Assembly: GCA_017610385.1 (NCBI GenBank)
Contig: JAFCCC010000004.1
Location: 1 to 64,000 of the forward strand
DNA from: Candidatus Nanohalarchaeota archaeon
GTDB taxonomy: Archaea; Nanohalarchaeota; Nanosalinia; Nanosalinales; JAFCCC01
Length of the DNA stretch: 64,000 nucleotides
Reading direction: 5' to 3'
Positions 4,447 to 50,079 of this stretch are shown one piece after another. Within the stretch, counting starts at the first letter, position 1. The number at the start of each line of letters is the position of its first letter. Below the pieces are notes generated by a model. The model had not been told where the DNA came from, made no database searches, and saw only the letters and a program-made list of their open reading frames with translations. The translations under genes were made by a program, and so were the position numbers.

Positions 4447-7400
4447 ATGACCACAACAAAACCAGATTCAAAATTTAAAGGTAATACGCCAAAAATAGAC
4501 TATTTTGAGCAATCAGAGTATTATTTTGATCGCAATGAAAAACGAATCCGTCTAAATCTTCAAGGAAGTAGTTATGCTGCTTCAATTGAGGATTTCGGCG
4601 AAGTTATGAGTAAAGTTATTACTTACCTTAGAAAAATAAGGGAAGCGCGATCATTTGTTCTTGCTAAGGATAGAGAATATGAATATACGGTTTACCAAAC
4701 ACATTTATTAAAGGAAATTGCAGAAGTTCTCGAATTTATCAAAAGAAAAAAATTAACAAATCCCTCTCAGTTAGAAATACCAAGTTGTGGAAAACATACT
4801 GCCGAAAGAGTTGCTTTTATGCAAGATTTTGTAATTAACAAATTGCAAACAGACCCTCTTGGTGCATATGTTCGACTAAAAAGATATATTGAAGAAATGA
4901 CTGTTATTGAAAACAAAGAGAGAGGGATATCTAATCGTTGTTATCAAAAATATATTTCAACAGTTTTAGAGCCTATCAGAATAGAATTAGAAAAAACAGA
5001 TTTAATTCAAAAAGTAAAAGATCAGCTTCCTGGACATCATATTGGAAATAGAGACATCTATAGACAGATTTTTCATCCAACAATTCGGCCAAATTTTATG
5101 TTGACTAGATATCAGGCATCGCTTCCTGAAAATGGAAATGAAATTGATCATTACATGATTCCTGTAGTAAATGCAGAAGTTCGGATTTTCAAAGTTTTAG
5201 GAGATATTAGACTACATTATCATATTACTCCGCCAGAATTTAATTTAAACGAAGAAGAATATGCTATTTTAGATACTGCCCGAAGATATATGTCTGAACA
5301 TGAACCAACAGAATCTGAGTTTGCAGATCCAGAAAGAACAAGGGAAGTTTTCTTTAATATTGGAAAAGACATGCTTTTGGATATTTTGGCTAGTATGGAA
5401 CTGGAGTTAAGTGAAGAAAAAGTTGAACAATTAGCCACTATTTTAACAAGATATACTGCTGGTTTAGGAATCTTAGAGGTTCTTTTAGCAGACCCAAACT
5501 TACAAGATATTTATGTTAATTCTCCTGTAGGGAACATTCCAATTTATACTATTCACGGGAAATATGGAGACTGCGTAACCAATCTTATTCCTACTTCCGA
5601 TGATGCTGAATCCTGGGCTACACGATTCAGAATGAGCTCTGGAAGGCCATTAGATGAGGCTAATCCTGTGTTAGATACAGAGACAGAAGTGCCAGGCGGG
5701 CGGGCCAGAGTAGCAATTATATCTAAAAATTTAAGTCCAGAAGGTCTAGCCTTCGCATTTCGACGTCATAGAGAAAAGCCATGGACCTTTCCGTTGTTTA
5801 TTGAACAAAATATGTTAACTCCATTGGCTTCTGGGTTACTAAGCTTCATAATCGACGGCGCAAGGACAATGCTCATTGCAGGAACTAGATCTGCTGGAAA
5901 ATGTGTTGAGGGTAACACCTTAATTCAACTTTCTGATGGCAACATCAAAAAAATTAAGGATTTGATTGGGGTAGAAAAACTCAAAATAGATGATGGAAAA
6001 TTATATGAGCCAAGAGACCCGTCTTACGTTCAAAGTTTAAGTGAAATGACCAATAGCTCACAAAAGATTCAACATGTATGGAAAAGAGAATCCCCTGAAA
6101 AAATGATTAAATTAAGGACAAAAACCGGTAAAGAGATAGTTACTACTCCAGAACACCCGTACTTTATCTATAATGGCGCGCTAAAGAATAAAAGAGCTGA
6201 TGAATTAAAGACTGGAGAGTTGATTGCAACACCAAGGAGAATTAAAACCAATGCAATAGATGTAAAAATCGAGTTAGACCACAATAATCATTTATTCACA
6301 GAAACAAAAAGTTACTATCTTGTAAAAGGTCGTACCAACGCCCATCAGGTTAAATTCCCCAAAAAAGTAACACCGGAACTTTCCGAATTTATTGGTCTCA
6401 TCTGTGGAGATGGACACTTAGATTTACACAAATTAGAATTCCATAATTGTTGCCCAGAATTAAGAAAAAGATATATTTCATTACTTGAGATGTTCGATCT
6501 TCCTTACAGAGTTTTCAAAAGTAAAACTACTTATGTAGTACAGGTCACATCTAGAGTATTAAATAGAATTTTAAATGATGTTTTCGAAATTCCATTTGGA
6601 AAAAAAGCAGATAAGATTATTATTCCACAAAAAATCTTACGATCTAATAACACTGTTTTGGCAGCATTTATTAGAGGATATTTTGACACAGATGGTTTTG
6701 TACATAAAAATAAGCGAGAAATTGAAATCACTAGTGCAAGTGAGGCCATAATTGAACAATTAAGGATGGCTCTTTTAAGATTCGGAATCATTTCTACAAC
6801 GAATAGAAAACGGGTTAGAGGATCAACTTATTTTAGATTACTAATATATGGAGCTTTTATTGAACCATTTGCAAAAGAAATTGGATTTTCTCAACCTGAC
6901 AAAGAAAAAAGATTAAGACGATTATTATCTGAAAAACACATGAATAATACCAATATTGATGTAATACCTCAGGGAAACGAAATCTTGCGGACTTTAAGAA
7001 AAGTTTTGAGAGTGAGTCCATTAGATTTGCGAGGGGCTGGAAAAGATTGTTGGGCATATGAAACTAATCAGTACAGAGTAACACGAAGATGGTTTAAAAA
7101 GATCATTGAATTTTATAGAAAAAGGTATGATTATTTAATTGAGAGTAAAGAACAGATTGAACTTCTTCGAAAATTTATTGAATTTGATTGTGATACATAT
7201 TTATCTAAAGTGGATTATTTAAGAAAACTTCTTGGAATATCCTATGTAACTCTTTCTGCCGATTTGAATATTTCTGATTCTGGACTTAAAAAAATACTTC
7301 AAAAGAACAAGGTAAGTGATATAGAAAAATTATGGGAAATCCATAAGTTAAAGCAAACTTTTAGCGTTCACCAAAAATCCTTATCCAATTTAAACGAGGT

Positions 7401-10400
7401 TGCACCAATCATTAAAAATACACCAATTTTTGTTGACGCCGGATTAATTTCTTACGCAAAACTTTCAAGAGATTTAAAAATACCAGAAACTACGTTGAAG
7501 TCCTATTGTTATGGAGGAATCACAGTTTCAGAAGAAAAAGCAAAACTTATTGAACATAAATTGACTTCAGTTAAAAATAAAGTAGTAGAACAAATAGAAA
7601 AATCAGAGAGTATCTTGCAAGAATTAAATTCATATGATTTTATTGCACACTGTGTTTCTTTTGGAACACTATTGCAAAAATTTAGAGAAGATCTTCACAT
7701 CACAAATCAGGAATTTGCTTCAGAAGACTTCTCGGTTTCTACAGTTTCTAATTTCTTTGCCGGTAGATATAAACCCTCCTACATGGTTTTAAAATCTCTT
7801 ATTGGGACAATATTAAAAATTTATGATGATTCTACCTCTTTAAAGGTACAAACTAGGTTAAGCGTATTTGAAAAATTAGCAAATTCAGATATTTTTTGGG
7901 ACGAAGTCTCTTCCGTGGAATTTATTAACAAGAGTGATGACTTTGTTTATGATTTGACAATTGAGAATACGCACAATTTTGTTGCAAATGGACTTTTTGC
8001 ACATAATACTTCTCTTCTAAGCGCCTGTTTAACCGAGCTGATGAAGAAATACCGGATCTGCACAGTAGAAGACTCAGTGACCGGAGATTCTAAATTGATG
8101 TATCGCATTAATAACCAATTTAAAAGAACGACTATAGGTGAACTCATTGACCCCCTCGTTGACCCAGAGAACAAAATAGCCACAGACAATTTAGAAATAC
8201 TAACAGACCTTCCTGAAAAAATAGAGGTTTATAGTATAGATGAATTCGGAAAACTTCACCTCTCACCAGTTTCTGCTGTTTCAAGGCACAAAGTTAAGAA
8301 AAAAATCTATGAAATTGAAACTAGAACTGGACGCAAAATTAAAGTAACAGAAGACCACTCATTATTCTCTTTGAATAATTCTGCGCAAATTTGCCCAATA
8401 CCCACCAAACAACTTAAAGCAGGGAATTACATTGCAACACCTCGTACCTTAAAATTATCTCAAAAAAATTTAGATTTTCTCAACTTGGCAGACTACACAG
8501 AGAAACTTAATGGATACTTTGTTTCTAAAAATATAAGCAAATATATACAGGAAAACAGAAAAAAAGTTTTAAAATTAGCTAAAAAATATAATTATTCAGA
8601 TTCAACTGTGGGAAGTTGGGTACGCAACGGAATTTTGCCTTCCCCAATCTTTAAAGAACTTGATTTAAAAGAGAACCTGCCTCTTACATCTTTAAAATAT
8701 AAAGAAGGCGGTCATTCCAGGGAAATAAACTGTAAAATAGGTCTTACTGAAGAACTACTTTCTTTTATGGGTATGTGGCTAGCAGATGGCTGTTATGATC
8801 AAAGAAGCATAATACTTTCTATTGCTGATAAAGAAGCAGTTGATATCATCACAAAAATTAGCAAATTATTTGGATGCGCTCTAAAAAAGCATTCGGATGG
8901 TTTTTCATACATGTTCAATAGCAAAACTGTAAAAGAAGTTATGATTTCTGTTCTGGGCCTAACTGGAAACTCTCATACTAAAAGAATTCCGAATCTAATA
9001 TATAATTTATCAGAAAAACAAATTGGCGCATTTTTAAAAGGTTTATTTAGTGGTGACGGATATACTGCAAAATATGAAGTAGGTATATCTCTTATTAATG
9101 CTAAATTAATCTCAGACGTTCAAACATTGCTTCTGGGGTTTGGAATTATTTCTCGCGTCAGGCTTGCGTCAGGTAAGGGCACATCTTCCTATAATACTTC
9201 ACACAATATGATTAGTCTGCGCATTAGCGGAATAAAATTCTTAGAGGAATTTAGAAAAAAAGTAAATTTTGTTCAGAACCACAGAAAAGAGTTCCTAGAA
9301 AAACTCTGTAATAAAAATATAACTCACGACAATACAGATATTATTCCTATTTCTTTAGATTTTAAAAAGAGGCTTTCAGTTATTTGCCCCTCATTTAGTA
9401 CCTACGATTACATCACAAGAGAAAATAATCTTGGCAGAGAAAAACTAGCTAGCTTAATAGAGGAAATCCCTGCCGGAGACACAGAACTGCTTTTGACTTC
9501 CAAGGATTTAGCAGAATCTGATGTATTTTGGGATCAAATAAAAAGCATCAAAGAAATCGAACACGATGGCAGTTACGTATACGATCTCTCTGTTCCTCAA
9601 AACGAATCTTTTGTATGTGAAAATATTTTAGCTCACAACACGCTAGAGATTCCAGTTTCTTCGTTGCGTGATTTGGGATATAATGTTGAACGAATGAAAT
9701 CTCGTTCTGTAATTACCCAAGTTGAAAGCGAACTTTCAGCAGATGATGCAATTAGAACTGCTTTAAGATTAGGTGATTCTGTTCTAATTATTGGAGAGGT
9801 AAGGAGTTTAGAAGCTAAGTCTCTTTATGAGGCAATGCGAATTGGTGCTCTAGCAAATTTTGTGGCAGGAACAATTCACGGAGACTCAGCGTATGGTGTT
9901 TTTGATCGTGTTGTAAATGATCTAGGTGTTCCCCCAACCTCTTTTAAAGCAACAGATATTGTTGTTGTAGCAAATACTCTTAGATCTCCGGATGGGCTAC
10001 ATACCTTTAGGAGAGTAACCAATATTGTTGAAGTAAGAAAAGAATGGACTGAAGACCCCTTAAAAGAACACGCTTTTGTTGATTTAATGATTTATGACTC
10101 TCAAAAAGATGAATTAGTTCCAACAGACACATTATTAAACGGTGAAAGTTTCGTTTTGAACAGTATTGCGAATAATATTAGAGAATGGAAAAATGATTGG
10201 ACGGCGATTTGGAATAACATATTACTAAGAGCCAAAATTAAAGAGACTCTTGTTAAATATTCTAGGGACTTTAAAAAACCAGAAATTTTAGAAGCAGAAT
10301 TTACAGTTAAATCAAATGAGAAATTCCATGAACTTAGTGAGTTTGTTAAGCAAGACCAAGGAATTATGAATTCTAAAAAAATATTTTCCTTATGGTTAAA

Positions 10401-10458
10401 CTGGGTAAAAAAAGAGCTTAAACTACAAAATATAAAGGCAAATGACTTCTTATTATAG
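4447..10458 (+). CDS. Type II/IV secretion (GspE/TadA/FlaI-like) ATPase interrupted by two inteins (system A)
   Basis: A 2003-residue precursor. Removing two inteins leaves a secretion ATPase of about 779 residues. The extein has an N-terminal domain (residues 1-about 320), a P-loop GTRSAGK ending at K485 and continuing after intein 1 as TSLL, and an Asp box TVED (1206-1209) continuing after intein 2 as TLEIP. These are followed by a Walker B-like LIIGEVR and a His box GTIHGDS, all typical of PilT/VirB11-type hexameric ATPases. It would power assembly of the type IV filament substrates encoded downstream. It is divergent from one platform gene and two bases from the next (10461). Both inteins must splice out to rebuild the P-loop and Asp box, so splicing could gate the activity of the machine. 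Confidence 0.92.
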   Translation: MTTTKPDSKFKGNTPKIDYFEQSEYYFDRNEKRIRLNLQGSSYAASIEDFGEVMSKVITYLRKIREARSFVLAKDREYEYTVYQTHLLKEIAEVLEFIKRKKLTNPSQLEIPSCGKHTAERVAFMQDFVINKLQTDPLGAYVRLKRYIEEMTVIENKERGISNRCYQKYISTVLEPIRIELEKTDLIQKVKDQLPGHHIGNRDIYRQIFHPTIRPNFMLTRYQASLPENGNEIDHYMIPVVNAEVRIFKVLGDIRLHYHITPPEFNLNEEEYAILDTARRYMSEHEPTESEFADPERTREVFFNIGKDMLLDILASMELELSEEKVEQLATILTRYTAGLGILEVLLADPNLQDIYVNSPVGNIPIYTIHGKYGDCVTNLIPTSDDAESWATRFRMSSGRPLDEANPVLDTETEVPGGRARVAIISKNLSPEGLAFAFRRHREKPWTFPLFIEQNMLTPLASGLLSFIIDGARTMLIAGTRSAGKCVEGNTLIQLSDGNIKKIKDLIGVEKLKIDDGKLYEPRDPSYVQSLSEMTNSSQKIQHVWKRESPEKMIKLRTKTGKEIVTTPEHPYFIYNGALKNKRADELKTGELIATPRRIKTNAIDVKIELDHNNHLFTETKSYYLVKGRTNAHQVKFPKKVTPELSEFIGLICGDGHLDLHKLEFHNCCPELRKRYISLLEMFDLPYRVFKSKTTYVVQVTSRVLNRILNDVFEIPFGKKADKIIIPQKILRSNNTVLAAFIRGYFDTDGFVHKNKREIEITSASEAIIEQLRMALLRFGIISTTNRKRVRGSTYFRLLIYGAFIEPFAKEIGFSQPDKEKRLRRLLSEKHMNNTNIDVIPQGNEILRTLRKVLRVSPLDLRGAGKDCWAYETNQYRVTRRWFKKIIEFYRKRYDYLIESKEQIELLRKFIEFDCDTYLSKVDYLRKLLGISYVTLSADLNISDSGLKKILQKNKVSDIEKLWEIHKLKQTFSVHQKSLSNLNEVAPIIKNTPIFVDAGLISYAKLSRDLKIPETTLKSYCYGGITVSEEKAKLIEHKLTSVKNKVVEQIEKSESILQELNSYDFIAHCVSFGTLLQKFREDLHITNQEFASEDFSVSTVSNFFAGRYKPSYMVLKSLIGTILKIYDDSTSLKVQTRLSVFEKLANSDIFWDEVSSVEFINKSDDFVYDLTIENTHNFVANGLFAHNTSLLSACLTELMKKYRICTVEDSVTGDSKLMYRINNQFKRTTIGELIDPLVDPENKIATDNLEILTDLPEKIEVYSIDEFGKLHLSPVSAVSRHKVKKKIYEIETRTGRKIKVTEDHSLFSLNNSAQICPIPTKQLKAGNYIATPRTLKLSQKNLDFLNLADYTEKLNGYFVSKNISKYIQENRKKVLKLAKKYNYSDSTVGSWVRNGILPSPIFKELDLKENLPLTSLKYKEGGHSREINCKIGLTEELLSFMGMWLADGCYDQRSIILSIADKEAVDIITKISKLFGCALKKHSDGFSYMFNSKTVKEVMISVLGLTGNSHTKRIPNLIYNLSEKQIGAFLKGLFSGDGYTAKYEVGISLINAKLISDVQTLLLGFGIISRVRLASGKGTSSYNTSHNMISLRISGIKFLEEFRKKVNFVQNHRKEFLEKLCNKNITHDNTDIIPISLDFKKRLSVICPSFSTYDYITRENNLGREKLASLIEEIPAGDTELLLTSKDLAESDVFWDQIKSIKEIEHDGSYVYDLSVPQNESFVCENILAHNTLEIPVSSLRDLGYNVERMKSRSVITQVESELSADDAIRTALRLGDSVLIIGEVRSLEAKSLYEAMRIGALANFVAGTIHGDSAYGVFDRVVNDLGVPPTSFKATDIVVVANTLRSPDGLHTFRRVTNIVEVRKEWTEDPLKEHAFVDLMIYDSQKDELVPTDTLLNGESFVLNSIANNIREWKNDWTAIWNNILLRAKIKETLVKYSRDFKKPEILEAEFTVKSNEKFHELSEFVKQDQGIMNSKKIFSLWLNWVKKELKLQNIKANDFLL
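5902..8007 (+). mobile_element. Intein 1 of system A ATPase (P-loop site), 702 aa, LAGLIDADG plus helix-turn-helix extension
   Basis: The insertion lies between Lys485 and the following Thr of the P-loop. It starts with Cys (CVEGNT) and ends VYDLTIENTHNFVANG...AHN before Thr, which are complete class 1 splicing motifs; TTPEHP supplies block B. Two LAGLIDADG-type motifs, FIGLICGDGHLD and FIRGYFDTDG, keep their acidic residues, so the homing endonuclease may be active. After a DVIP motif there are about 350 extra residues with several helix-turn-helix-like segments before the C-terminal splicing block. It is unusually long for an intein and resembles the 696-residue intein at the same site of the second ATPase (29897-31984). 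Confidence 0.93.
8074..9639 (+). mobile_element. Intein 2 of system A ATPase (Asp-box site), 522 aa, Ser-initiated, LAGLIDADG
   Basis: The insertion lies after TVED and before TLEIP in the Asp box. It begins with Ser (SVTGDSKLM) rather than Cys and ends VYDLSVPQNESFVCENILAHN (given here as two blocks: YVYDLSVPQ and LAHN), before Thr. Block B is VTEDHSLF. The LAGLIDADG pair is MGMWLADGCYD and LKGLFSGDGYTA, with both acids present. It follows the same plan as the P-loop inteins, including a DIIP motif and a short helical segment before block F, but lacks their long extension. Its N-terminal sequence is clearly different from intein 1, so it is a separate acquisition. The equivalent site in the second ATPase (29141) is uninterrupted. 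Confidence 0.92.
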
Positions 10459-10460
10459 GT

Positions 10461-29140: not shown

Positions 29141-32100
29141 ATGAAAGAATATATGGAAGAATATATTGTAGATTCAGACGGCGTTCCCGCCAGAATAAGA
29201 ATTATTGATGGAACAGATTATGTACCTCATTATGAAGTAGACCGTCCAATTATTAATGAAGCAACTGAAGCAATTTTAGAGGAAATCAAAAGTGGTTTAG
29301 TACGAGAAGTTACAATTTCTATTAAAGAATATGTTGATTCAAAAGAATTAGAAGGTGTTAAAGAAAAATTTATAGCAAAAGCAAATGAATTAATTAAATC
29401 AGTTCTTCCTCGTGTTGGAGAAGCCCAACGAAAGGTACTAATTGGAAATTTAATTCATGAGATGCTTGGTTTGGGAGATTTAGAAATTTTACTAAATGAT
29501 GATAAATTAGAAGAAATTGTAATTAATAGTTCAAAAGAACCAGTCTGGGTTTATCATAAAAAATTAGGCTGGTTAAAAACAAATATTATACCAAAAAGTG
29601 AAAGTGAAACTTATAATTATTCTTCAATTATTGGTAGGAGAGTTGGTCGCCAAATTTCAAATTTAAATCCCTTATTAGATGCACACTTGCCGTCGGGGGA
29701 TAGAACAAACGCGACAATATTTCCAATTTCAACCAAAGGAAACACATTAACTATCAGAAAATTTGCAAGATCTCCATGGACTATTACTGATTTTATTGAA
29801 AATCATACAATATCTGCAGATATTGCCGCATTGATTTGGTTGTGTATGCAATATGAATTGAATGTCCTAATATCTGGAGGTACGGGATCTGGCAAATGTG
29901 TTTCAGGAGACACACAAGTTTTATTATCAAATGGAGAACTTAAACGTATCAAGGATGTAGTTGATGAGAACCTAAGTTCTAATTGTGTACCTAGCGATGA
30001 TGGTTGGTATTCAAAACAGACCTCAGTTTCATTATTTTCAATGAATTCTAATTTAAAACTAAATGAAAGAAGTTGCTCGCAAATTTGGAAAAGAGAGGCC
30101 CCCGAATATTTGTTTGAACTTACCTTTCAGAGTGGCAAAAAAATCAAAGTTACTCCAGAACACCCGTTCTTTGTTAATGATGCAGGAGATATACGAAAAA
30201 TCTGTGCAGAAGATCTTACAACCGGCCAAAGAGCCGCTACAACTAGAAAGATTAATATAAAAGGCGAAGTCTATTCTTTAGAAGAGAAATTGAGCAATCT
30301 AAGTTTCTTCAGGCAAAAAGAAAAAGATTATGTGCTTTTGTGCTCACCGAAAGGACTGCCTGTAAAATTCCCTACCAAATTATCCCCTGAACTGGCTAAA
30401 TTTATTGCGTATTTATTAGGAGATGGACATTTGAGTAAAGATGGTTCTCAATTAGCATTTCATAATACCAATCATCGCCTTTTAAATGAGTTTCAAAATC
30501 TTGGTGAAAAGCTATTTGATATAAACTTCCACCACAAGAAACCTAAAAATCGTGTTGAATGTATTCGTTGTTATTCCAAAACCTTATGCGAGACCATTTC
30601 TCAAGTATTTTGTATTCCCAAAGGTGTAAAATCACACAGGATTTTAGTACCAAAAGAAATTTTAGGAGGCACAGAAGAAATCATCTGTGGATTTGTAAAG
30701 GCACTAATGGATTGTGAGGGGTCAGTTAGTCTCAATAAAGATGAGATAGAATTTGGTTCTAAAAGTTCAGAGATTGTTAACCAGTTGCAATATCTTCTAA
30801 ATAGAATAGGCATTATTTCTCGAGTGAAGTTTGGTAAGAACAACAGAAATAGACTATTTATTTCTTCAAGAGATGTTAGAATATTTACTAAGAAGATTGG
30901 TTTTACACACCCCCTTAAAAAAGATAAGTTAGAACAGCTTCTGACCAAAAAATTAAATCCCAACTTTGATCTACTTCCCTGTCAATCCCTTCTGAAAAAA
31001 GTTTGTAATAATTTTTCATTATACGACAAAGAAGTAGCATTAGGATCTAAACTAAGTCGAAGGAGTATTTCTCGGTACTTAGATGGATCGAGAATGCCTT
31101 CCCCCGCAAATTTACAAAGAATATATAATTTTCTAACTCATAAAAATGACCAAATAAAGCAGGAATTAGAAAGATTCTCATTAGTCGAAGGGTTAATTAA
31201 AAAAATACCGGAAAAAGAAGCATTATTACATTGCACTAAAATTCTTGATCTAACTCATTTAAACACTAATGATATTCTTTTCAAGAGCGGATTAAGTAAT
31301 TCGATTTATTGGCAATGGAAACAAGAGGTTACACCATATACAAAAAATTTAGTTAAATTTGGAAACTGCGTTGTAGACTCATTTGAAAATTTTGAAAAGA
31401 ATGTGATGAATGCTGAAACTCTAGAAGATTTTACCAACTGCGGAATCTATAAAAAAGAGATTGCAGAATATGCAGAACTGCCACTAAACCAGGTTTATAA
31501 AAAAAGCAAAATCAACAAACCTTTAAATCATTTGCAGTTGGATGCTGTAAAACTTCAAGAATCTGTTCTTTTAGAGGAAGTTAGAGCTGAGGCTAAAAAA
31601 CTCAAAGAAATTCTGAGCAGTTGGGATAAAAAAGATTACCAAGCAATTTTTAGTGAAATTGTTCGTCTAAGAAATTTATTGAGGTTGTACCCTGAAAAAA
31701 CAAAAAAGGATTTGGGTTATAGTATTCCTCAAAGCACCGAGTCTGTTGTTCAGTATTCTAAAGAAAAGCTTACGGGGATTTCTAATTATCTTCGCGAGAC
31801 TCTAGAGCAAATGCACGCAAATGGAACGAAATTACTTCGAAATTTGGAAAATTTGGTTAAAAGCGATGTTCTTTGGGACAAAATTGTTACCATTAAACAG
31901 ATAAAATCTACTGAAAAGTGGGTTTATGATTTAACTGTTCCAGATACACACAATTTTGTTGCTAATGGTATAATTGCACATAATACGTCTTTATTGAATG
32001 TTCTAATGCCATTTATACCCGCAAATCAAAGAATTGTTTCAATAGAAGATACTAGAGAAATTCAGCTTCCAAATTTTTTACATTGGGTTCCTTTAACAAC

Positions 32101-32788
32101 TAGACAACAAAATCCAGAAGGCAAAGGAAAAGTTTCAATGTTAGATCTTTTAGTTAATTCTTTAAGAATGAGACCAGATAGAATAATTGTTGGAGAAATA
32201 CGAAGAAAGAGGCAGGCAGAGGTTTTATTTGAAGCTATGCACACAGGACATTCTGTTTATTCTACCCTCCATGCAGATACTGCACAACAAACGATTAGGC
32301 GATTAATAAATCCTCCAATTGATGTTCCAGTATCTATGATTTCGGCAATAGATTTAAATGTTGTAATGTTTCGAGATAGACGAAGAAACTTTCGAAGAGT
32401 TATGGAGGTAGCCGAAGTTATTCCAGAGTTTCAGGGAGCTAATTCCGAAGCCAATGCTAATATAATTTATCGCTGGCATCCCAAATCAGATGTAATACGA
32501 AAAGAAGGCAGAAGCATTAGAGTAAATAGTCAATTAGAATTGCATGCTGGGCTAAGTCAAGAAGAAATACGAGCCGACATCGCAGAAAAAGTCAAAATTC
32601 TAAATTGGATGGTCAAAGAAAATATTAGAGATATTGAAGAAGTAGGCAAACTTATTGCAGAATATTACAAAGATAAAACTGTCGTATTAAATTTGATTAG
32701 TAAACCATACCACTTAAAATCTACCAAGGTTCAAGTAATCAAACCAAAACGTGTGAATTCAAAAACAATAAGAAAAGCCAAAAAATAA
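29141..32788 (+). CDS. TadA/FlaI-like secretion ATPase with P-loop intein (system B)
   Basis: A 1215-residue precursor. Without its intein it is a 519-residue ATPase of the VirB11/TadA/FlaI family. The N-terminal domain contains LGLGDLEILLNDD. The P-loop GGTGSGK is interrupted after Lys252 and resumes as TSLLNVL. The Asp box IEDTREIQLP is uninterrupted, the Walker B-like segment is RIIVGEIR, and the His box is STLHADT. It powers filament assembly with the two T2SSF proteins encoded directly downstream. The extein is shorter than the system A ATPase (about 779) and probably typical of archaeal TadA. The intein must be spliced out to make ATP binding possible. Confidence 0.94.
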   Translation: MKEYMEEYIVDSDGVPARIRIIDGTDYVPHYEVDRPIINEATEAILEEIKSGLVREVTISIKEYVDSKELEGVKEKFIAKANELIKSVLPRVGEAQRKVLIGNLIHEMLGLGDLEILLNDDKLEEIVINSSKEPVWVYHKKLGWLKTNIIPKSESETYNYSSIIGRRVGRQISNLNPLLDAHLPSGDRTNATIFPISTKGNTLTIRKFARSPWTITDFIENHTISADIAALIWLCMQYELNVLISGGTGSGKCVSGDTQVLLSNGELKRIKDVVDENLSSNCVPSDDGWYSKQTSVSLFSMNSNLKLNERSCSQIWKREAPEYLFELTFQSGKKIKVTPEHPFFVNDAGDIRKICAEDLTTGQRAATTRKINIKGEVYSLEEKLSNLSFFRQKEKDYVLLCSPKGLPVKFPTKLSPELAKFIAYLLGDGHLSKDGSQLAFHNTNHRLLNEFQNLGEKLFDINFHHKKPKNRVECIRCYSKTLCETISQVFCIPKGVKSHRILVPKEILGGTEEIICGFVKALMDCEGSVSLNKDEIEFGSKSSEIVNQLQYLLNRIGIISRVKFGKNNRNRLFISSRDVRIFTKKIGFTHPLKKDKLEQLLTKKLNPNFDLLPCQSLLKKVCNNFSLYDKEVALGSKLSRRSISRYLDGSRMPSPANLQRIYNFLTHKNDQIKQELERFSLVEGLIKKIPEKEALLHCTKILDLTHLNTNDILFKSGLSNSIYWQWKQEVTPYTKNLVKFGNCVVDSFENFEKNVMNAETLEDFTNCGIYKKEIAEYAELPLNQVYKKSKINKPLNHLQLDAVKLQESVLLEEVRAEAKKLKEILSSWDKKDYQAIFSEIVRLRNLLRLYPEKTKKDLGYSIPQSTESVVQYSKEKLTGISNYLRETLEQMHANGTKLLRNLENLVKSDVLWDKIVTIKQIKSTEKWVYDLTVPDTHNFVANGIIAHNTSLLNVLMPFIPANQRIVSIEDTREIQLPNFLHWVPLTTRQQNPEGKGKVSMLDLLVNSLRMRPDRIIVGEIRRKRQAEVLFEAMHTGHSVYSTLHADTAQQTIRRLINPPIDVPVSMISAIDLNVVMFRDRRRNFRRVMEVAEVIPEFQGANSEANANIIYRWHPKSDVIRKEGRSIRVNSQLELHAGLSQEEIRADIAEKVKILNWMVKENIRDIEEVGKLIAEYYKDKTVVLNLISKPYHLKSTKVQVIKPKRVNSKTIRKAKK
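29897..31984 (+). mobile_element. Intein of system B ATPase (P-loop site), 696 aa, LAGLIDADG plus helix-turn-helix extension
   Basis: The insertion lies between Lys252 and Thr of the P-loop. It starts CVSGDTQVLLSNG and ends VYDLTVPDTHNFVANG then IIAHN before Thr. Block B is VTPEHPFF. LAGLIDADG motifs are FIAYLLGDGHLS and VKALMDCEGSVS, both with acidic residues. A long extension follows with helix-turn-helix-like segments (LSRRSISRYLDGSRMPSP; ILFKSGLSNSIYWQWKQ). It matches intein 1 of the system A ATPase in site, length and sequence order (for example VKFPTKLSPELAKF against VKFPKKVTPELSEF), so the two share a recent ancestor. Confidence 0.93.
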
Positions 32789-32801
32789 ATAGGTGATTTT
32801 G

Positions 32802-33647
32802 ATGAAGAAAAAATCCCAAAATTACCAAATTTTCTTACCTTTAGCACAAAAATTGAAAGTTTTATTTCCAACTTTAAATCGTGAAATTATTCAAGCAAAA
32901 TTGAAAGATGATCCTGTTGTTTTATTGGCCAAGGCAATTTATAGCGCACTTATACGATCCATAATAATCTCTTTACCTCTTATCGTGACTGGTATTTTAA
33001 TTTCAATTAAACTTCTTTGGTTTGGTCTAGCTGCTTTTCCATTAGTTTTATTATTCAGTTTTTTTACTGGCGCAAAAACCCCGCAAAGAAAAGCTATAAA
33101 ACGAGTTAGATTATTAGAGCGAGATTTACCATATGCTTTACGGCACATTTTAATTGAGGTTAAGTCTGGAATACCTCTTTTTCAAGCCATGGTTTCTGTT
33201 TCAGAGGGATATGGTGAATCTTCCAGAGAATTTGAACAAATTGTGAAAGAAATTCATTCGGGAATACCCGAAGTTCAGGCCCTAGAGAATGCAATTTTTC
33301 GAAATCCTTCTTTAGAATTTAGAAGATCTCTTTGGCAAATTATTAATTCTTTGGAATCAGGAGCCAATGTTTCTTCTACATTAGAATCTTTAGTTGATTC
33401 TATAGTAAATAATCAGGTTTTAAGTGTCCAAAAATACGGAAAAGAATTAAATCCATATACTTTAATTTATATGCTGGCGGCAGTAATCTTACCATCTTTG
33501 GGAGTTACATTTTTAATGATTTTATCTACCTTTACAGGAATAAAAACCTCAGACACCCTGTTTTATGGAATTCTTGTATTTTTAATTTTATTCCAATACT
33601 TTTTCATTAATTTCATTAGAAGTAAAAGACCATTAATAAAAGTTTAG
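32802..33647 (+). CDS. T2SSF/TadB-like membrane platform protein (system B, first)
   Basis: A 281-residue protein from the ATG at 32802; an in-frame GTG at 32793 is better read as the GGTGA ribosome-binding site. Two hydrophobic helices occur at about residues 50-95, then a cytoplasmic T2SSF helical bundle (LERDLPYALRHILIEVKSG and GANVSSTLESLVDS), then two or three C-terminal helices. It is a short single-domain form, unlike the long platform proteins of system A. It lies 13 bases after the ATPase and eight before a second T2SSF gene, giving the TadA-TadB-TadC order of Tad-type systems. Confidence 0.86.
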   Translation: MKKKSQNYQIFLPLAQKLKVLFPTLNREIIQAKLKDDPVVLLAKAIYSALIRSIIISLPLIVTGILISIKLLWFGLAAFPLVLLFSFFTGAKTPQRKAIKRVRLLERDLPYALRHILIEVKSGIPLFQAMVSVSEGYGESSREFEQIVKEIHSGIPEVQALENAIFRNPSLEFRRSLWQIINSLESGANVSSTLESLVDSIVNNQVLSVQKYGKELNPYTLIYMLAAVILPSLGVTFLMILSTFTGIKTSDTLFYGILVFLILFQYFFINFIRSKRPLIKV

Positions 33648-33655: not shown

Positions 33656-34621
33656 ATGCAAAAAGAAACATTATTTAATTTATTACCAAAAAAATACAGA
33701 ACGCTGTTGGAGAGCGAGGCACAATTCGCGCATATTCGTAATTATATTCCGATTTCACTGAATGTCATAACAATAATTTCAGCGATCTCTAGTTTGTTGG
33801 CGCTTTTTTTACATGTTTCTTTGATTTTAAAATTAGTTATTCTGTTAGGTGGAATCTCGTTAGCATTCATAATGCCTTACATGATTTTTACACTGACTGC
33901 AGAAAAGCGTAAAACAGAAACAGAGCAAGTTCTTCCTGATGCTTTGTTGCTTATGAGCGCAAACATTAAATCTGGTTTAACAGTAGATAAAGCATTTTTA
34001 TTAAGTGCAAGAGACGAATTTGGTCCTTTGGGTCTTGAAATCAAAGCAGTTGCAATGGAAATTTTTGGGGGCAAACCAATCAGCGAAGCTTTACTACGTC
34101 TAAAGAAAAAAACTAACTCTAAAATTCTAGGGGAAATCGTAGCACTGATTGCAGATGGGATAAAATCTGGCGGAGAACTTTCCAAACTATTAGAAAGTGC
34201 CGCTCGAGATATTAGAAAAACAATGTTATTAAAAAAAGAGATTGCTGCAAATGTAAGAACTTATATTATTTTTATTACGATGGCGGCCTTAGTTGGATCC
34301 CCATTGCTTTTCGCAATTTCTACATATTTAACGTCAACTACCGCCCAAATTTGGGGGTCAACAGCGATAGATTTTAGTACAGTATCTGCTGGGGGTTTTT
34401 TTAGTTTTCAAAAACCCCACTTTAATCCAGAGTTCTTTAGAATTTTTTCTATATTAGCTATAATTATTACTAATTTATCTGCATCCTTCATAATTTCTGA
34501 AATAAAATACGGAACAATAAAGAAAGGATTCAAAAATGCACCAATTTATGTGCTATTATCTTTAGCAATATTTTTTATTGTAAGGTTTATAATTTCTAGA
34601 GCTCTCTCAACCCTAATTTAA
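33656..34621 (+). CDS. T2SSF/TadC-like membrane platform protein (system B, second)
   Basis: A 321-residue protein with a GGAG ribosome-binding site. It has paired helices at residues 30-85, a T2SSF cytoplasmic domain (LLMSANIKSGLTVDKA and IADGIKSGGELSKLL), and several C-terminal helices. It is related in plan to its neighbour at 32802, and the two would form a heteromeric inner-membrane platform for the ATPase at 29141. It is the last gene before a pilin with its own promoter. Confidence 0.86.
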   Translation: MQKETLFNLLPKKYRTLLESEAQFAHIRNYIPISLNVITIISAISSLLALFLHVSLILKLVILLGGISLAFIMPYMIFTLTAEKRKTETEQVLPDALLLMSANIKSGLTVDKAFLLSARDEFGPLGLEIKAVAMEIFGGKPISEALLRLKKKTNSKILGEIVALIADGIKSGGELSKLLESAARDIRKTMLLKKEIAANVRTYIIFITMAALVGSPLLFAISTYLTSTTAQIWGSTAIDFSTVSAGGFFSFQKPHFNPEFFRIFSILAIIITNLSASFIISEIKYGTIKKGFKNAPIYVLLSLAIFFIVRFIISRALSTLI

Positions 34622-42620: not shown

Positions 42621-42640
42621 CCTTATCTTTTTAGGTAAGG
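42621..42640. terminator. Hairpin between convergent genes
   Basis: A 7-bp stem CCTTATC with GGTAAGG (one G-T pair) encloses the loop TTTTTA. It sits in the 88-base gap between the DUF192 gene and the antiporter gene on the opposite strand, so it could end transcripts from either side. A GTTCGAT following it resembles a tRNA T-loop, but no tRNA fold exists. Confidence 0.5.
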
Positions 42641-42693
42641 GTTCGATAGAGAAGTAATCTTAACGAAGTTTGTAAGGAAATAACTTTCTTTTT

Positions 42694-44388: not shown

Positions 44389-44391
44389 ATT

Positions 44392-44895: not shown

Positions 44896-45019
44896 CTAGA
44901 ATCCCTTATGGGAAAATATGACCAAGAGTCCTTTTAAATGTTTCCATATTTCTCAATTAAGCAACTATGCAATATGAAATATTATTTCATACGAAAACAA
45001 AACCAACATAAAAGCGAAA

Positions 45020-45295
45020 TTATTTTTTCATTAATTTTACAACGCTATCATAAATCTTGAAAAATTGTTTTAATTCTTTAAATTTTAAGAAGTAATATTT
45101 TTCAGGATGCTCTCTTTCAAAATTTAAAAAACCCAAATCATACAACAATTTAAGATGTTTTGATGCGGAAGACTCTGTTATGTTTAATTGTTCCGCAACT
45201 TCATGAACTGAAACCCTTTGTTTCTTATACAGAATATGAAATATGTCTCGTCTTATCTTAGATCTTATTGCTCTGGCCAATTTTTCATCTGGCAT
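45020..45295 (-). CDS. ArsR-like winged-helix transcription regulator
   Basis: A 91-residue protein. The wHTH is plain: RRDIFHILYKKQRVSVHEVAEQ (quoted as RRDIFHILYKKQ), then LNITESSASKHLKLLYDLGF as recognition helix, then an EREHPEKYYF wing. It lacks metal-binding cysteines, so it is a generic ArsR/TrmB-like repressor rather than a metalloregulator. It ends 124 bases upstream of the CBS-antiporter operon and has the same direction, so it may regulate it. Confidence 0.88.
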   Translation of the reverse strand: MPDEKLARAIRSKIRRDIFHILYKKQRVSVHEVAEQLNITESSASKHLKLLYDLGFLNFEREHPEKYYFLKFKELKQFFKIYDSVVKLMKK

Positions 45296-45444
45296 ATTAT
45301 ATAATAGGGTGTTAGGGTTTTAATTAATTACTTTTTATTCTTCCCCCAGATTGCATAGACCCTCCATGATAGATTCGTATGTGATTCGGTTTGGGTCCGA
45401 AAAATTATTGTCTCAAACGTACGGGATTCGTATAGGGGTGTATT

Positions 45445-45517
45445 TGGGTCTGGGGAGAATCGAACTCCCGACCTTTGCCTTGTAAGGGCAACGTCATAAC
45501 CCCTAGACCACAGACCC
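45445..45517 (-). tRNA. tRNA-Val (anticodon TAC)
   Basis: The fold by eye has acceptor GGGTCTG/CAGACCC with discriminator A, D arm GTCT/TGAC, anticodon stem TTGCC/GGCAA with loop CTTACAA (anticodon TAC), and T arm GGGAG-TTCGATT-CTCCC. No intron and no CCA are encoded. The 149 bases downstream, up to the ArsR-like gene, contain no clear gene. Confidence 0.96.
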
Positions 45518-45552
45518 AAAATTTCTGAAAGTTTCACTGACTGACAAATCAA

Positions 45553-45740
45553 AGAGCGTTCATTTCTGTTTAATTTAAATTAGGCCCTTCACAGCCACAC
45601 GAAACACAATACACTATAATTCCTTTTTCAAAAAAGTTTTTAAATGTGTGTTGTTGATAATTGACTTTTTGAAAGGTTTGTATGTTGTTAAGTTAGTTGT
45701 TTGTATTCTATTTAGTTATATTATACGTGACTTTATCAGA
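45553..45740. other. Gene-free AT-rich intergenic stretch
   Basis: No reading frame, tRNA or clear hairpin was seen in these 188 bases, which are T-rich on the plus strand (many TTGTT/TTAG runs). It joins the structured repeat region at 45741 and may hold the promoter for it: TTATATTATACG near 45717-45728 is TATA-like and about 25 bases before the first repeat. Confidence 0.45.
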
Positions 45741-45941
45741 TTATTTTTGTGAAGGTTGCCTCACAGAGTGAGTGCAGCCTAAAGCGTTAACCGATTTCGC
45801 GGTTACTTTTGTGAAGGTTGCCTCACAGAGTGAGTGCAGCCTAAAGCGTTGATTAACTTGACCGGAAAATATAATTTAATGTTAAGTTAGCCCAATCACG
45901 TTAATCAATTAACCGATTTCGCGGTTATCCGAGCGCTCGGA
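45741..45941. repeat. Structured direct repeats with hairpins; candidate non-coding RNA
   Basis: Two 48-base copies (45741-45788 and 45803-45850) differ at one position and have a 62-base period. Each contains an 11-bp hairpin, GGTTGCCTCAC with GTGAGTGCAGCC and an AGA loop. Between them, and again at 45910-45927, is TAACCGATTTCGCGGTTA, a second hairpin. The perfect palindrome TCCGAGCGCTCGGA (45928-45941) follows. These are GC-rich islands in an AT-rich gap, the usual mark of structured RNA in such genomes. They lie 36 bases before an AlkA-like gene. Function unknown. Confidence 0.6.
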
Positions 45942-45976
45942 GTTAAAAATAAAAATACTCAATCCAAAGTAAAAAA

Positions 45977-46603
45977 ATGAATATTAAAGAACAAATCAAA
46001 GTTCTAAAAGAAAAAGATCCAATTTTAGGAGAAGTAATAGATCAAATTGGCATAATTACCATACCTCACAAAGAGGAAAATACGTTTATTGCGCTGTCAA
46101 ACACAATAATTTATCAACAATTAGCAGGAAATGCCGCCAAATCCATTTATGGACGATTTAAAGCACTTTGTAATAATGAAATAGCCCCAAAAAAAGTGCA
46201 GAGTTTATCTCTCGAAGAATTAAGAACTGCGGGTCTCTCTGAGCGAAAAGCTTTATATCTGAAGGACCTCGCAAGGAACTTTATTAAAGGTATGATTCTT
46301 CCTGAAAACTTTAGTAAATTAAGTAATGAAAAAATTATGGAAAAACTAATGGCTGTAAAAGGAATTGGTCCATGGACTGTAGAAATGTTTTTAATATTTA
46401 ACCTAAATCGGCCAGATGTTTTTTCAGCCAAAGATTTGGGATTGCATAAGGGAATTTGTAAATTATACAATAAAAAGTATCCTTTAACAGAAAAAGAATT
46501 AAATGAAATCGCAGAAAAATGGAGTCCGCATAGAACTCTAGCTTCTTTATATTTATGGAAAATTAAAGACCGCGTGAATTTTGAGCCAATGTTTATTGAT
46601 TAA
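45977..46603 (+). CDS. DNA-3-methyladenine glycosylase II (AlkA-like, HhH-GPD)
   Basis: A 208-residue protein of the HhH-GPD superfamily, which removes alkylated bases. The helix-hairpin-helix LMAVKGIGPWTVEMFL is followed by the catalytic aspartate region NRPDVFSAKDLGL. The N-terminal TIIYQQLAGNAAKSI is the base-flipping region seen in AlkA-type enzymes. The length matches short AlkA homologues without the N-terminal domain. Its stop overlaps the end of the convergent HerA gene by four bases. Confidence 0.93.
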   Translation: MNIKEQIKVLKEKDPILGEVIDQIGIITIPHKEENTFIALSNTIIYQQLAGNAAKSIYGRFKALCNNEIAPKKVQSLSLEELRTAGLSERKALYLKDLARNFIKGMILPENFSKLSNEKIMEKLMAVKGIGPWTVEMFLIFNLNRPDVFSAKDLGLHKGICKLYNKKYPLTEKELNEIAEKWSPHRTLASLYLWKIKDRVNFEPMFID

Positions 46604-49600
46604 ATTTGTTTTCCAGTAATCGCATCAATAACTATCTTTTGAGTTGCGTAATATGGGTAATAAATTATATCTGCTCCATCTATTTCCCCTTTAATTACTT
46701 TTTTGGCCCGAGAAACCGCGTTATTTCTTGAATAGTCTATTTCTAATACTTTAGCATTCTGAGCGTCTACTTTTCCTATATTTGCAAATGGATTTTCTTT
46801 ACCAGAATAAAATGTTTTTTCACCATCCAGAAATCTCTTAACAAATTTTTGAGAAACCAGATGATCTAGCATTGCTGAAAGATCACTAAAACTTATTGAT
46901 AACTTTTCAATTAATTCATTTTTTGTTCTAGGTTTTAAACTAACTATATTCAATAATTCAAGTTCTCCACCACTTAAATTCGGACTTCTAAATTTAAGTT
47001 CGCCATTTTTTCCATCTAACACCAATTTTAAATTTCCAGAAGTTATGACCCAAAGCGGATAATATACTTCTTTCATGGATTCTCTAAGTTTTTTTTCAAA
47101 ATAATCTTTCGAATACTTTGGAGAAAATATTTTCAACATTTTAGTAGATTCTGTCATTACTTTCATTTCTCCACCATGTTTAGTTTTCCTGACTCGTATT
47201 TCAGTCATAATTGGATAGTCTTTTCCTAAAACCAAGCCCACACCAGACGGAAGTCCACGTATAGCTCCCTTAACGCTTTTTGTAACTCCCTCAAAGGATT
47301 TAGAAATAGCGTTTAAATCGCTTGGATTGGTAACCCTTAAAATAACTTGTGTATTGCACTGGGATAAAATATTATTATCTATTCTAGCAGGTCTTTGAGA
47401 AACAACAATTAATCCTAGACCGAATTTTCTTCCTTCTGATGCAATAGACATTAATGTGTTAGAACTTGCCGCCTTTCCAATATTCCTCTCAGGAATAAAA
47501 TTGTGTGCTTCCTCAATTAACATTAAAAAAGGACTAACTTCCCCTCTTTTTCTTAAATAAAATAGATTTTTAGAAAGTAAATGCACAATAATTTCTTGGG
47601 TTTTTGGTGCAACACCCTTCAAGTTAATTAATGTTGCTTGCCCAGGTTTTATTAAATTTTTGAGTTCTGTGGGATTTTTAGAAAATAGACTGCTTTTTCT
47701 AAGTAATTCTAGTAAATTAATCAAACCCCACTTTGCTTTGGATTCTGACGCCGTACAAAAAGAGAGTATATCATCCAAAGAATAGTTTTTACCTTCTAAC
47801 TCTCTCAAAATTGTATATAAAATACCTAATTGAGAATTAGTTAATTTAGATGGTAAAACATCCATAATATCTTGTGCTTTCAAATTCATTTCTGAGAAAG
47901 TTAATAATTGTGCTTCACTATTCACACTGGATTCCCCAGTAAATTCAACAACTTTGTAACTTTTTGGAGTTACTTCAAATTTTTCCTGTTGTTCCTTAGT
48001 AATTTTATTTTTGGTTCCTAAACTATGATATTCTCCATGTGGATCTATTATTAATACTGGATAATTTTTGTCTAATAGTTCTTCACATACGACCCCAGCA
48101 AGATAACTATTATGAGAAACAATTCCTCCTCGCCCAGCTATAAAAGTATGGGTGTCGTCTACAGTGAGATCATAAACATACCCATCATCACTAGTTTTTT
48201 CATTAATTTCTGTAATTTGATCCCAAAATATATCCGAATCAGCCAACAAACTTATTTTTTTAGAAGGCAAAACTTCTTTCAGTTTTTTAACAGCCTCTCG
48301 AGACGGAAATCTGTTTTCTAACTCATATCTACTAATAATCATATCACTCATTCCAATTCTCTTACTTAACTCCATTTGAGATAAACCATTTTCTTTTCGG
48401 GTTCGAAGAATTTCTGGCCCAAGATGGGGTATAATATCTACATTTGTATTTCCTTTTGTGTTGTTAACATAAGATTTTAGTTTTTCTTGTTTTCGTTTTA
48501 TAGAAAATCCAATACGGTCTGAAAATTTACAAAGATTTCCAGCGCCACTAATTGAGACTTCATAATACCAATTACCAGAATGATTTGAATTAGTTGCTTT
48601 TTTAAATGACTTCCTCAGCCTTGCGACAATCTTAAAGTTTAATAGCAAATACATGATCTTATTGGCTATATCTTTGCTTGCACTGGATAGTGTAACCGCA
48701 CAATTTTCCATACAGCCTTCACAATCATAAAAAGTTCTTAAAAATGATTTCTTACAGTTTATATCTGACTTTAAAATGCAATCCGGAATATTTTTCTCCC
48801 GAGATTTATGACTTACCTCATATCCAATGCATTCCAAAAATAATTTTAAAGATTTAGAATCAATATATCGTGCACAATCTGAGAACTTGCCGGTTTTTAA
48901 TCCAAAAAGCTTCATTCCAAGATTTGAGAATCTTCGTAATAGTTTTTCATCATAATTAGTAAAAATGATTCTGAAACTAGTTTTATCTACTTCAGCTCCC
49001 TCTGCAATACTCAATGCAAGAAATTCTGCTAAATCGGGACTCATCGCAGTGGGATATGAAATGGCCTTACTAAATTTTGAATGTATTAATATACAACCTC
49101 GTGAAGAATTAAGGGGCGAATCGTCCTCGTAGATCCAATTATCAATAGTCTTTCTTTTTTCAGGAATACCCAAAATATTACAAATTCTTTGTGCCCCAAA
49201 ACCTTCTTCTCTTAATCGCATAACTTTTGTATACGTCTTTTTTGCTTCTTTTCTTAAGTCGTTGATCTGATTACTTTGTTCTAAAACAGATTCGGGAATC
49301 TTCAAATCATTTTTACTGTTTACCAAGGTTTTTCTTGGAATTGCAATATAGTCCCCTTTCTTTAGAACACGAGACTCCTTAAATTGAACTTCGTCTTGAA
49401 TTGTAAGCAAAGGATGTTCTTCAGAAACCTCTATTTTTCTCCCAGAGGCAGTTCTAAGTTCTAATATTTTATCGCATTTTTTCCTGTATGCAAAACTTGC
49501 TGGAGATGTTTTTAGTTTTAAATTTTTATCTATAGATTGCACGAAAACATTTTCAAGTGATATTAATTTTTCTTCTTCAGAATTTTTAATCACATTATTT

Positions 49601-50079
49601 TCACTGTCTTTAAAAATAGCTCTTATTGTCTTTAATGATCCATCATCCAATAAAATTTCAGTGTTCCCACTTACACATTTTCCCGAGCCAGTCTGAGCAA
49701 GAATTGCGACGTGTTTGTAAAATGATTCAGGATCTAGATGAATTTTAACATGCGTATTAGATTCTAACTTTCCAATATATAGTCCACGTTCATCTAAACC
49801 CAGAGTTTCTGAAATTAATTCTTGCGATGCAGAGTAAATCATAGAATTTGGTTTAATTGCAGATTTTGGTCTTCTCAATAATCCTTTTTCTCTGTAACCA
49901 ATAATAGAAGTTTGCGCTTCTGTTTTACCATCTTCATATTTTTTAACTTCTTGAACTTGTGCCAAAATCCATTGTTCTTGTTTTTTAACTGCCACAAAAT
50001 CAAATTTTTTAATTTCTGTATACGCTCTAAACTTAAATTCCGAGGTAGATACGGTACCTTCAATCTCTCCAATTAACAT
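46600..50079 (-). CDS. HerA-type hexameric ATPase/helicase with P-loop intein
   Basis: A 1159-residue precursor from the ATG at 50079; an ATG six bases upstream is also possible. Without the intein it is a 636-residue HerA (COG0433) ATPase. It has an N-terminal HAS-barrel (GEIEGTVSTSEFKF), P-loop AQTGSGK interrupted after Lys and resumed as SYLAGV, Walker B MLIEEAHNFIPE, and an EGRKFGLGLIVVSQRPARI sensor-like region. HerA works with NurA in double-strand break end resection. No nurA gene is adjacent, so it may serve as a stand-alone translocase. A TATA-like AGTTTAAAGAG lies about 25 bases upstream. Confidence 0.92.
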   Translation of the reverse strand: MLIGEIEGTVSTSEFKFRAYTEIKKFDFVAVKKQEQWILAQVQEVKKYEDGKTEAQTSIIGYREKGLLRRPKSAIKPNSMIYSASQELISETLGLDERGLYIGKLESNTHVKIHLDPESFYKHVAILAQTGSGKCVSGNTEILLDDGSLKTIRAIFKDSENNVIKNSEEEKLISLENVFVQSIDKNLKLKTSPASFAYRKKCDKILELRTASGRKIEVSEEHPLLTIQDEVQFKESRVLKKGDYIAIPRKTLVNSKNDLKIPESVLEQSNQINDLRKEAKKTYTKVMRLREEGFGAQRICNILGIPEKRKTIDNWIYEDDSPLNSSRGCILIHSKFSKAISYPTAMSPDLAEFLALSIAEGAEVDKTSFRIIFTNYDEKLLRRFSNLGMKLFGLKTGKFSDCARYIDSKSLKLFLECIGYEVSHKSREKNIPDCILKSDINCKKSFLRTFYDCEGCMENCAVTLSSASKDIANKIMYLLLNFKIVARLRKSFKKATNSNHSGNWYYEVSISGAGNLCKFSDRIGFSIKRKQEKLKSYVNNTKGNTNVDIIPHLGPEILRTRKENGLSQMELSKRIGMSDMIISRYELENRFPSREAVKKLKEVLPSKKISLLADSDIFWDQITEINEKTSDDGYVYDLTVDDTHTFIAGRGGIVSHNSYLAGVVCEELLDKNYPVLIIDPHGEYHSLGTKNKITKEQQEKFEVTPKSYKVVEFTGESSVNSEAQLLTFSEMNLKAQDIMDVLPSKLTNSQLGILYTILRELEGKNYSLDDILSFCTASESKAKWGLINLLELLRKSSLFSKNPTELKNLIKPGQATLINLKGVAPKTQEIIVHLLSKNLFYLRKRGEVSPFLMLIEEAHNFIPERNIGKAASSNTLMSIASEGRKFGLGLIVVSQRPARIDNNILSQCNTQVILRVTNPSDLNAISKSFEGVTKSVKGAIRGLPSGVGLVLGKDYPIMTEIRVRKTKHGGEMKVMTESTKMLKIFSPKYSKDYFEKKLRESMKEVYYPLWVITSGNLKLVLDGKNGELKFRSPNLSGGELELLNIVSLKPRTKNELIEKLSISFSDLSAMLDHLVSQKFVKRFLDGEKTFYSGKENPFANIGKVDAQNAKVLEIDYSRNNAVSRAKKVIKGEIDGADIIYYPYYATQKIVIDAITGKQI
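48109..49677 (-). mobile_element. Intein of HerA (P-loop site), 523 aa, LAGLIDADG plus XRE-type HTH
   Basis: The insertion lies between Lys of AQTGSGK and Ser. It starts CVSGNTEILLDDGS and ends YVYDLTVDDTHTFIAG then GIVSHN before Ser. Block B is VSEEHPLL. LAGLIDADG helices are FLALSIAEGAEVD and LRTFYDCEGCM, with Glu in the acidic positions. After a DIIP motif comes a clear XRE helix-turn-helix (LSQMELSKRIGMSDMIISRY), then the splicing block. Domain order matches the P-loop inteins of the two secretion ATPases, but it lacks their long extension. Its start motif (CVSGNT) is closest to theirs. Confidence 0.93.

Follow-up and report, generated by a model that had tools for sequence, protein, structure and literature searches.

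Are three inteins that sit at the same codon boundary of three different ATPase genes copies of one wandering element, or has each long belonged to its own gene? The question is raised by a stretch of 64,000 nucleotides (hereafter the window) from contig JAFCCC010000004.1 of a Candidatus Nanohalarchaeota archaeon. The source is an archaeal metagenome-assembled genome (MAG) of 788 kb in 18 contigs, and the window is part of the contig here numbered C8. Inteins split the P-loops of two secretion ATPases, termed A and B, and of a HerA-type ATPase, and the initial annotation proposed that one endonuclease lineage may have moved between them. Comparison with inteins of other archaea makes a different account very probable, namely that the window holds four separate inteins, each a long-lived mobile element fitted to a single codon position in a particular gene or gene family. 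Their putative targets are the P-loop Lys/Thr of A-type pilus ATPases for intein A1, the Asp/Thr of the ED-T box for A2, the P-loop Lys/Thr of VirB11-like ATPases for B1 and the Lys/Ser of HerA for H1.

Four inteins in three ATPase genes

The precursor of ATPase A (4447..10458, forward strand; 2003 amino acids) is a type II/IV secretion ATPase of the FlaI/TadA-like kind with T2SSE Pfam and FlaI/TadA NCBIfam matches, and removal of two inteins leaves 779 amino acids. Intein A1 (5902-8007, forward; 702 amino acids, Cys1) lies between the Walker A motif GTRSAGK (5881..5901, forward) and its Thr codon at 8008-8010, with the junctions GTRSAGK/CVEGNT...LFAHN/TSLL. The ATPase B precursor (29141..32788, forward; 1215 amino acids, 519 once spliced) is a FlaI/VirB11-like T2SSE protein whose Walker A motif GGTGSGK (29876..29896, forward) is parted from its Thr codon (31985-31987) by intein B1 (29897-31984, forward; 696 amino acids, Cys1, GGTGSGK/CVSGDT...IIAHN/TSLL). 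On the reverse strand, the HerA-type precursor (46600..50085; DUF87; 1161 amino acids, 638 once spliced) has intein H1 (48109-49677, reverse; 523 amino acids, Cys1, AQTGSGK/CVSGNT...IVSHN/SYLA) between AQTGSGK (49678..49698, reverse) and the Ser codon at 48106-48108. These exact junctions, together with matches to the Pfam intein splicing domain in A1, B1 and H1 (E 8e-30, 1e-28 and 2e-25) that lie well outside chance expectation, bear out the reported separation of GxxxxGK from its Thr or Ser in all three genes. The three inteins of the initial annotation are real, but a fourth was overlooked: A2 (8074-9639, forward; 522 amino acids, Ser1, ending His-Asn/Thr) interrupts ATPase A at VED/TLEIP, 22 extein residues downstream of A1.

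In-silico removal restores uninterrupted GTRSAGKTS, GGTGSGKTS and AQTGSGKSY in A, B and HerA, and intein-free orthologues align straight through the insertion sites. The splicing domain PF14890 exceeds its cut-off in all four window inteins, LAGLIDADG_3 is likewise matched in all four, and two LAGLIDADG dodecapeptide motifs are visible in their alignment. Catalytic residues are intact, with Cys1 in A1, B1 and H1 and Ser1 in A2, block B T/SxxH motifs reading TPEH, TPEH, SEEH and TEDH, and C-terminal junctions HN/T, HN/T, HN/S and HN/T across the four. By these sequence features, A1, A2, B1 and H1 are full-length class 1 inteins with predicted LAGLIDADG homing endonucleases. The P-loop trio occupies the classic position of VMA-b and MCM-a inteins, in which the Walker A Lys precedes the insertion and Thr or Ser follows it, whereas A2, at VED/T, does not and groups with ED/T inteins.

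The trio shares the start C-V-[ES]-G-[ND]-T and a D[VIL][IL]P motif (DVIP, DLLP and DIIP in A1, B1 and H1), both as first described. A common domain order had also been claimed, but the helix-turn-helix (HTH) falls in different registers: right after the endonuclease in H1 (amino acids 423-466, E 2e-6), at the distal end of a helical accessory domain of about 300 amino acids in A1 (591-633, E 7e-8), and, as a weak match, near the start of the long accessory region of B1 (378-409, E 0.0016).

Three of the four window inteins group firmly with inteins of their own site

Relatives were gathered label-blind with intein profiles plus one search for the P-loop junction pattern, which gave 30 matches in 197 genomes compared with 4 for the reversed pattern, and hosts were named by motif. 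The resulting trees follow host and site closely. In a tree of 160 inteins, 19 host-site groups need 24 changes (minimum 18; shuffled mean 109), and in a careful tree of 69 inteins all 17 of 17 groups fit with the minimum of 16 changes (shuffled mean 54). In the latter, A1 falls among the P-loop inteins that A-type ATPases carry in other archaeal lineages (support 97/97), A2 within ED/T inteins (100/99) and H1 within HerA inteins (100/98). An intein in EF-2, elsewhere in the genome, falls within EF-2 inteins (100/100). The approximately unbiased (AU) test rejects a clade of A1, B1 and H1 (delta lnL 308, p 0.0009), as well as a clade of A1 and B1 (delta lnL 109) and one of all four window inteins (delta lnL 614). 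With these tests and the same-gene kin of A1 and H1, the proposal of a single lineage moving between the three P-loops is rejected as a recent event. Indeed, the tree of archaeal inteins that the initial annotation called for largely gives the result that it had named as contrary to its own proposal.

Identities point in the same direction. Intein and extein have diverged in step between A1 and its counterpart at locus L113 (52.6% and 56.2%), between A1 and L114 (46.3% and 47.4%) and between H1 and L014 (45.7% and 46.7%), compared with about 30% among the window's own inteins. Two other inteins bear on the affiliation of the window's order (Nanosalinales) and make it probably nanohaloarchaeal: the HerA intein of order-mate G021 is identical to that of Nanohaloarchaea archaeon B1-Br10_U2g19 (L144), and an ATPase intein of order-mate G007 has the same type, length and junctions as one of Candidatus Nanohalarchaeota archaeon QJJ-9 (L147).

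Several observations weigh against an account in which every intein is an old allele of its own gene. The pair A1 and L146 breaks the match of identities, with 33.2% for the intein and 52.3% for the extein. B1 groups among the other P-loop inteins of VirB11-type hosts with low support (78/89), and the hosts of its nearest kin (L026, L132 and L137) are paralogues with 34-40% identity to B; they are 43-59% identical to the genome's own intein-free paralogue on contig C6, and B is less close to them than are the C6 or C3 genes of that genome, which lack inteins. Because of this weak grouping and these paralogous hosts, B1 is not established as a same-gene allele. In the order-mate G007, the orthologue of C6 is filled and B is empty, whereas in the window genome B is filled and C6 is empty. 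Further VirB11-type P-loop inteins were absent from the loci retrieved from about 200 additional archaeal genomes. B1 is accordingly the sole window candidate, a weakly supported one, for a jump between P-loop paralogues, its putative source being a neighbouring VirB11-like paralogue. The reliance on a MAG and the visibly damaged EF-2 intein gene also count against the account, and deep intein branches are poorly resolved throughout.

Presence and absence across the order

Most order-mates carry the same genes without inteins. All 20 of the 20 A orthologues that span the P-loop lack an intein there (those of G026 and G027 have one at ED/T instead), B is intein-free in 19 of 19, and HerA is intein-free in 24 and filled in two (G012 and G021). 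The window inteins are sporadic and dispensable for their host genes, as mobile elements would be. The A1 plus A2 pair recurs in Nanoarchaeota (L114) and Micrarchaeota (L177); in a haloarchaeal study, neighbouring inteins were not co-homing partners (PMC10643990). As to a viral vehicle, 18 viral contigs held distant relatives of the A2 alignment, none matched the H1 patterns, and no close viral kin was found.

The order-mate G027 has P-loop inteins in SMC, a HerA-like ATPase and V-ATPase A (among loci L043, L053, L055 and L066), and its RFC intein ends before the P-loop Thr, with the N-terminal end masked. Several P-loop inteins in one genome are therefore not unique to the window genome.

Structure and known relatives

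An AlphaFold2 model of A1, the intein whose fold was examined, was built from seven same-site alleles (mean predicted local distance difference test score, pLDDT, 82.9). In it, both termini together form a beta-rich splicing domain, the two endonuclease repeats span residues of about 158-343, and residues of about 358-660 are all helical. Among solved structures, the TliVMA P-loop intein matches it best, over its full length (Z 39.2, 341 residues, root-mean-square deviation 2.5; TMt 0.71). Profile searches of the PDB with A1, B1 and H1 place VMA-b P-loop inteins and CDC21-1 first or near first, whereas with A2 the polymerase intein PI-PkoII and TFIIB inteins come first.

The VMA-b inteins of the archaeal V-type ATP synthase subunit A (TliVMA 7qss/7qsu, PhoVMA 7qst; PMC8966425) share with the trio the P-loop site and the combination of splicing, LAGLIDADG and accessory domains, but differ in their host genes, and the accessory regions of A1 and B1 are much larger (about 300 amino acids). 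Since the TliVMA accessory domain already resembles a helix-turn-helix (PMC8966425), the order of splicing block, LAGLIDADG pair and HTH is a known modular architecture. MCM-a and CDC21-1 inteins likewise follow the Walker A Lys and rank high among PDB matches (PMC10643990, PMC6801210), and the MCM of P. abyssi has a neighbouring intein 27 residues downstream, comparable to the A1-A2 spacing; their host is a helicase, however, and the solved CDC21-1 examples are mini-inteins lacking an endonuclease. The TerL1-a intein of mycobacteriophages occupies the same Lys/Thr position in a phage terminase (PMC5050341).

One old lineage or repeated arrivals?

The initial annotation had also offered the P-loop as a repeated target, and in this it was right. 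Lys/Thr or Lys/Ser P-loop inteins occur in about 14 nucleoside triphosphatase (NTPase) families in these data, with hosts that include T2SSE, HerA, SMC, SRP54/FtsY-type GTPases, EF-2, IF-2, V-ATPase A, MCM, RFC, LonB, MutS, ABC and Snf2-type proteins. The Lys/Thr position has already been named the 'classic' P-loop intein insertion (PMC5050341), and MCM-a and VMA-b have been noted to share it (PMC10643990). The A1/B1-type profile yielded 78 parsed genome loci, of which 66 are P-loop insertions by a strict regular expression that misses at least three clear cases (L144, L184 and L189).

Such a pattern could have arisen through ancient ectopic spread, in which one lineage of archaeal P-loop inteins made rare moves from one paralogous NTPase P-loop to another and then diversified into site-specific alleles, and this stands at about an even chance of being correct. 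On the 160-intein tree 5 changes of the P-loop label suffice; shuffling it among host sites raises the figure to 15.1, and none of 5000 shuffles came as low. Bootstraps, reduced sets and separate domain trees agree, more weakly: 12 bootstraps gave 7-13 changes against about 15.5, omission of the pattern-selected loci 6 against 13.9 (p 0.002), and a reduced set from the first intein-profile collection 7 against 11.7 (p 0.002; weaker in two of four bootstraps), while endonuclease-only and splicing-only trees each show the clustering (p 0.012 and 0.027). In addition, groups that span paralogues are well supported in the 69-intein tree, namely EF-2 with IF-2 (100/99), HerA with HerA-like ATPases (100/100) and the ED/T inteins of A-type with those of VirB11-like ATPases (100/99). 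Because of this clustering and these groups, rare old movement between paralogous NTPase sites is plausible. The preference of A1, B1 and H1, unlike A2, for VMA-b and CDC21-1 in the PDB and the reciprocal occupation of B and C6 in the window genome and G007 also speak for it. On the other hand, deep branches are weak and differ among trees, three of the 12 bootstraps are non-significant, the trees cover archaeal P-loop inteins and leave the bacterial ones of RecA and DnaB outside, and related local inteins that repeatedly invaded an attractive site would look alike.

Somewhat less probable, though a serious contender, is convergent targeting, in which unrelated inteins would each have persisted at Lys/Thr or Lys/Ser on account of a conserved motif that supplies the +1 nucleophile. 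HerA-like P-loops do hold two or more distinct lineages, and the site is popular in bacteria, phages and archaea alike (PMC5050341, PMC10643990), but clustering of P-loop inteins beyond what their hosts explain would not be expected if all arrivals were unrelated. The window elements form part of a broader group of related archaeal P-loop inteins, and this implies that old and rare moves between P-loop genes took place. It is only in this deep sense that the notion of a shared lineage keeps statistical support, as no recent jump among A, B and HerA is seen.

Splicing as a switch

An intein at this position should block ATP binding before its removal, and it was suggested that splicing could therefore act as a switch, with the three machines kept inactive until a signal triggers splicing. 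There are precedents. The P-loop intein of P. horikoshii RadA, which like the window trio would block ATPase activity before splicing, splices conditionally on heat and single-stranded DNA (PMC5790916), and the P-loop intein of a mycobacterial DnaB is responsive to oxidative stress (PMC6195587). The case for regulation here is one of analogy and involves nothing specific to these genes, conditional splicing being demonstrated for RadA. Furthermore, the RadA inteins are mini-inteins, whereas the window inteins retain intact endonuclease motifs, as self-spreading inteins do. Most order-mates use the same three genes without inteins, and with 19-24 such order-mates per gene an obligate switch is disfavoured. 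Regulated splicing of this kind is thus improbable.

Insertion-site DNA and a recent jump

If one endonuclease had recently carried an intein from P-loop to P-loop, its target DNA might be unusually alike. The 15 bases on each side of the A1, B1 and H1 insertions, whose alignment the initial annotation had proposed as a check, are identical at 15-16 of 30 positions pairwise, as amino acids and codon usage predict, and there is no additional similarity beyond the amino-acid constraint; this outcome, too, runs largely counter to the proposal. Intein-free P-loops of the same genome match the insertion sites equally well or better. For instance, those of the paralogues on contigs C3 and C6 share 22 of 30 bases with the B1 site, more than the A1 or H1 site does.

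The long extensions of A1 and B1 were considered as a sign of common descent and dropped as such, as BLASTP finds no mutual similarity between their extensions. The location of the three genes within 44 kb was also set aside as a signal. ATPases A and B are both of the T2SSE/FlaI-TadA type with T2SSF membrane proteins beside them: a T2SSF-like FlaJ/TadC-type protein adjoins A (2275..4398, reverse; E 4e-5, slightly short of the Pfam cut-off), and two T2SSF proteins lie directly 3' of B (32793-33647 and 33656-34621, forward). The grouping is not telling because pilus genes tend to be neighbours, and with five intein-bearing genes in 0.79 Mb it would arise fairly often (rough chance estimate about 0.1).

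Recent movement of one homing endonuclease lineage among the P-loops of A, B and HerA, within this genome or its recent ancestors, is the least credible of the alternatives and very improbable indeed, since the identical codon position and junction residues of the trio, the end-to-end alignment of A1 with B1 (27%, E 2e-66) and the appearance of the T2A and T2B union as one side of a best-tree branch (at 57/62 only) are outweighed by the AU rejections, the low mutual identity, the same-gene kin of A1 and H1, the dissimilar accessory regions and the unremarkable site DNA.

Other inteins and sites

Beyond the window, the genome holds inteins in EF-2 and in DP2, the large subunit of DNA polymerase II. 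Immediately after the EF-2 intein comes the P-loop Thr; the contig lacks the intein's N-terminal junction. In this gene (L011, about 1719-1780; G000:C11), of which no second copy was found in the genome, some 26 codons that include the P-loop and the first intein block are gone and the frame is shifted; further on, NVSMVHELDGKKYLI is duplicated in tandem. The damage is either an assembly fault or a real lesion. The DP2 intein (L010; G000:C13) has 480 amino acids and the junctions HCAKRRN/CVPGNT...SHN/CDGDED; a simple scan of its residues 61-110 gave no T/SxxH motif.

The ED/T site is also occupied in VirB11-like paralogues (L023 in G010; L029/L048 in G087), whose inteins fall, with good support, into a single clade with the A-type ED/T inteins. 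A further site, HDG/A...SN/C, known from KlbA, is filled in three secretion ATPases (L082 in G041:C1, L048 and L071), and the 2026-amino-acid frame of L082 has at least two inteins and probably three. The M. jannaschii KlbA intein (MJ0781; 2jmz) presumably also resides in an archaeal VirB11/FlaI-type secretion ATPase, as its match to locus L071 suggests. Its site, HDG/Ala1, matched in L071, is neither the P-loop nor the ED-T box, and the window inteins do not belong to its family, as their sites differ and KlbA-site inteins form a separate group in the 69-intein tree.

Mechanism and implications

Directly observed are the anatomy of the inteins, spliced frames that read cleanly, undamaged splicing motifs, trees that follow alleles and numerous cognate genes of the order that lack inteins. 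To these, established intein biology adds a likely way of life that comprises splicing, DNA cleavage and homing. Each host would be translated as an inactive precursor, from which the intein would excise itself through its terminal Cys or Ser and Asn and the host +1 Thr or Ser, restoring GxxxxGK[TS]. The endonuclease would cleave those copies of the gene that lack the intein, and the intein would be copied into them during repair. A nearly unchangeable motif would guard the intein against imprecise loss and provide the +1 nucleophile, which may be why P-loops are so often invaded.

To the P-loop inteins already known, these elements add some from pilus-type ATPases and HerA of archaea, and the set shows inteins at three distinct positions of type II/IV secretion ATPases in archaea: the P-loop, ED/T and the known KlbA site. 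They also provide a clean case in which apparent intragenomic intein copies prove unrelated at the recent level. A broader proposal, to which about half of one's credence may be given, is that archaeal P-loop inteins are one or a few old lineages that repeatedly moved among paralogous NTPase P-loops, which would make the P-loop a cross-gene homing target and B1 a comparatively late jump between VirB11-like paralogues. With P-loop inteins of many NTPase families more alike than the distribution of their hosts explains, why inteins prefer P-loops becomes testable as a tree problem.

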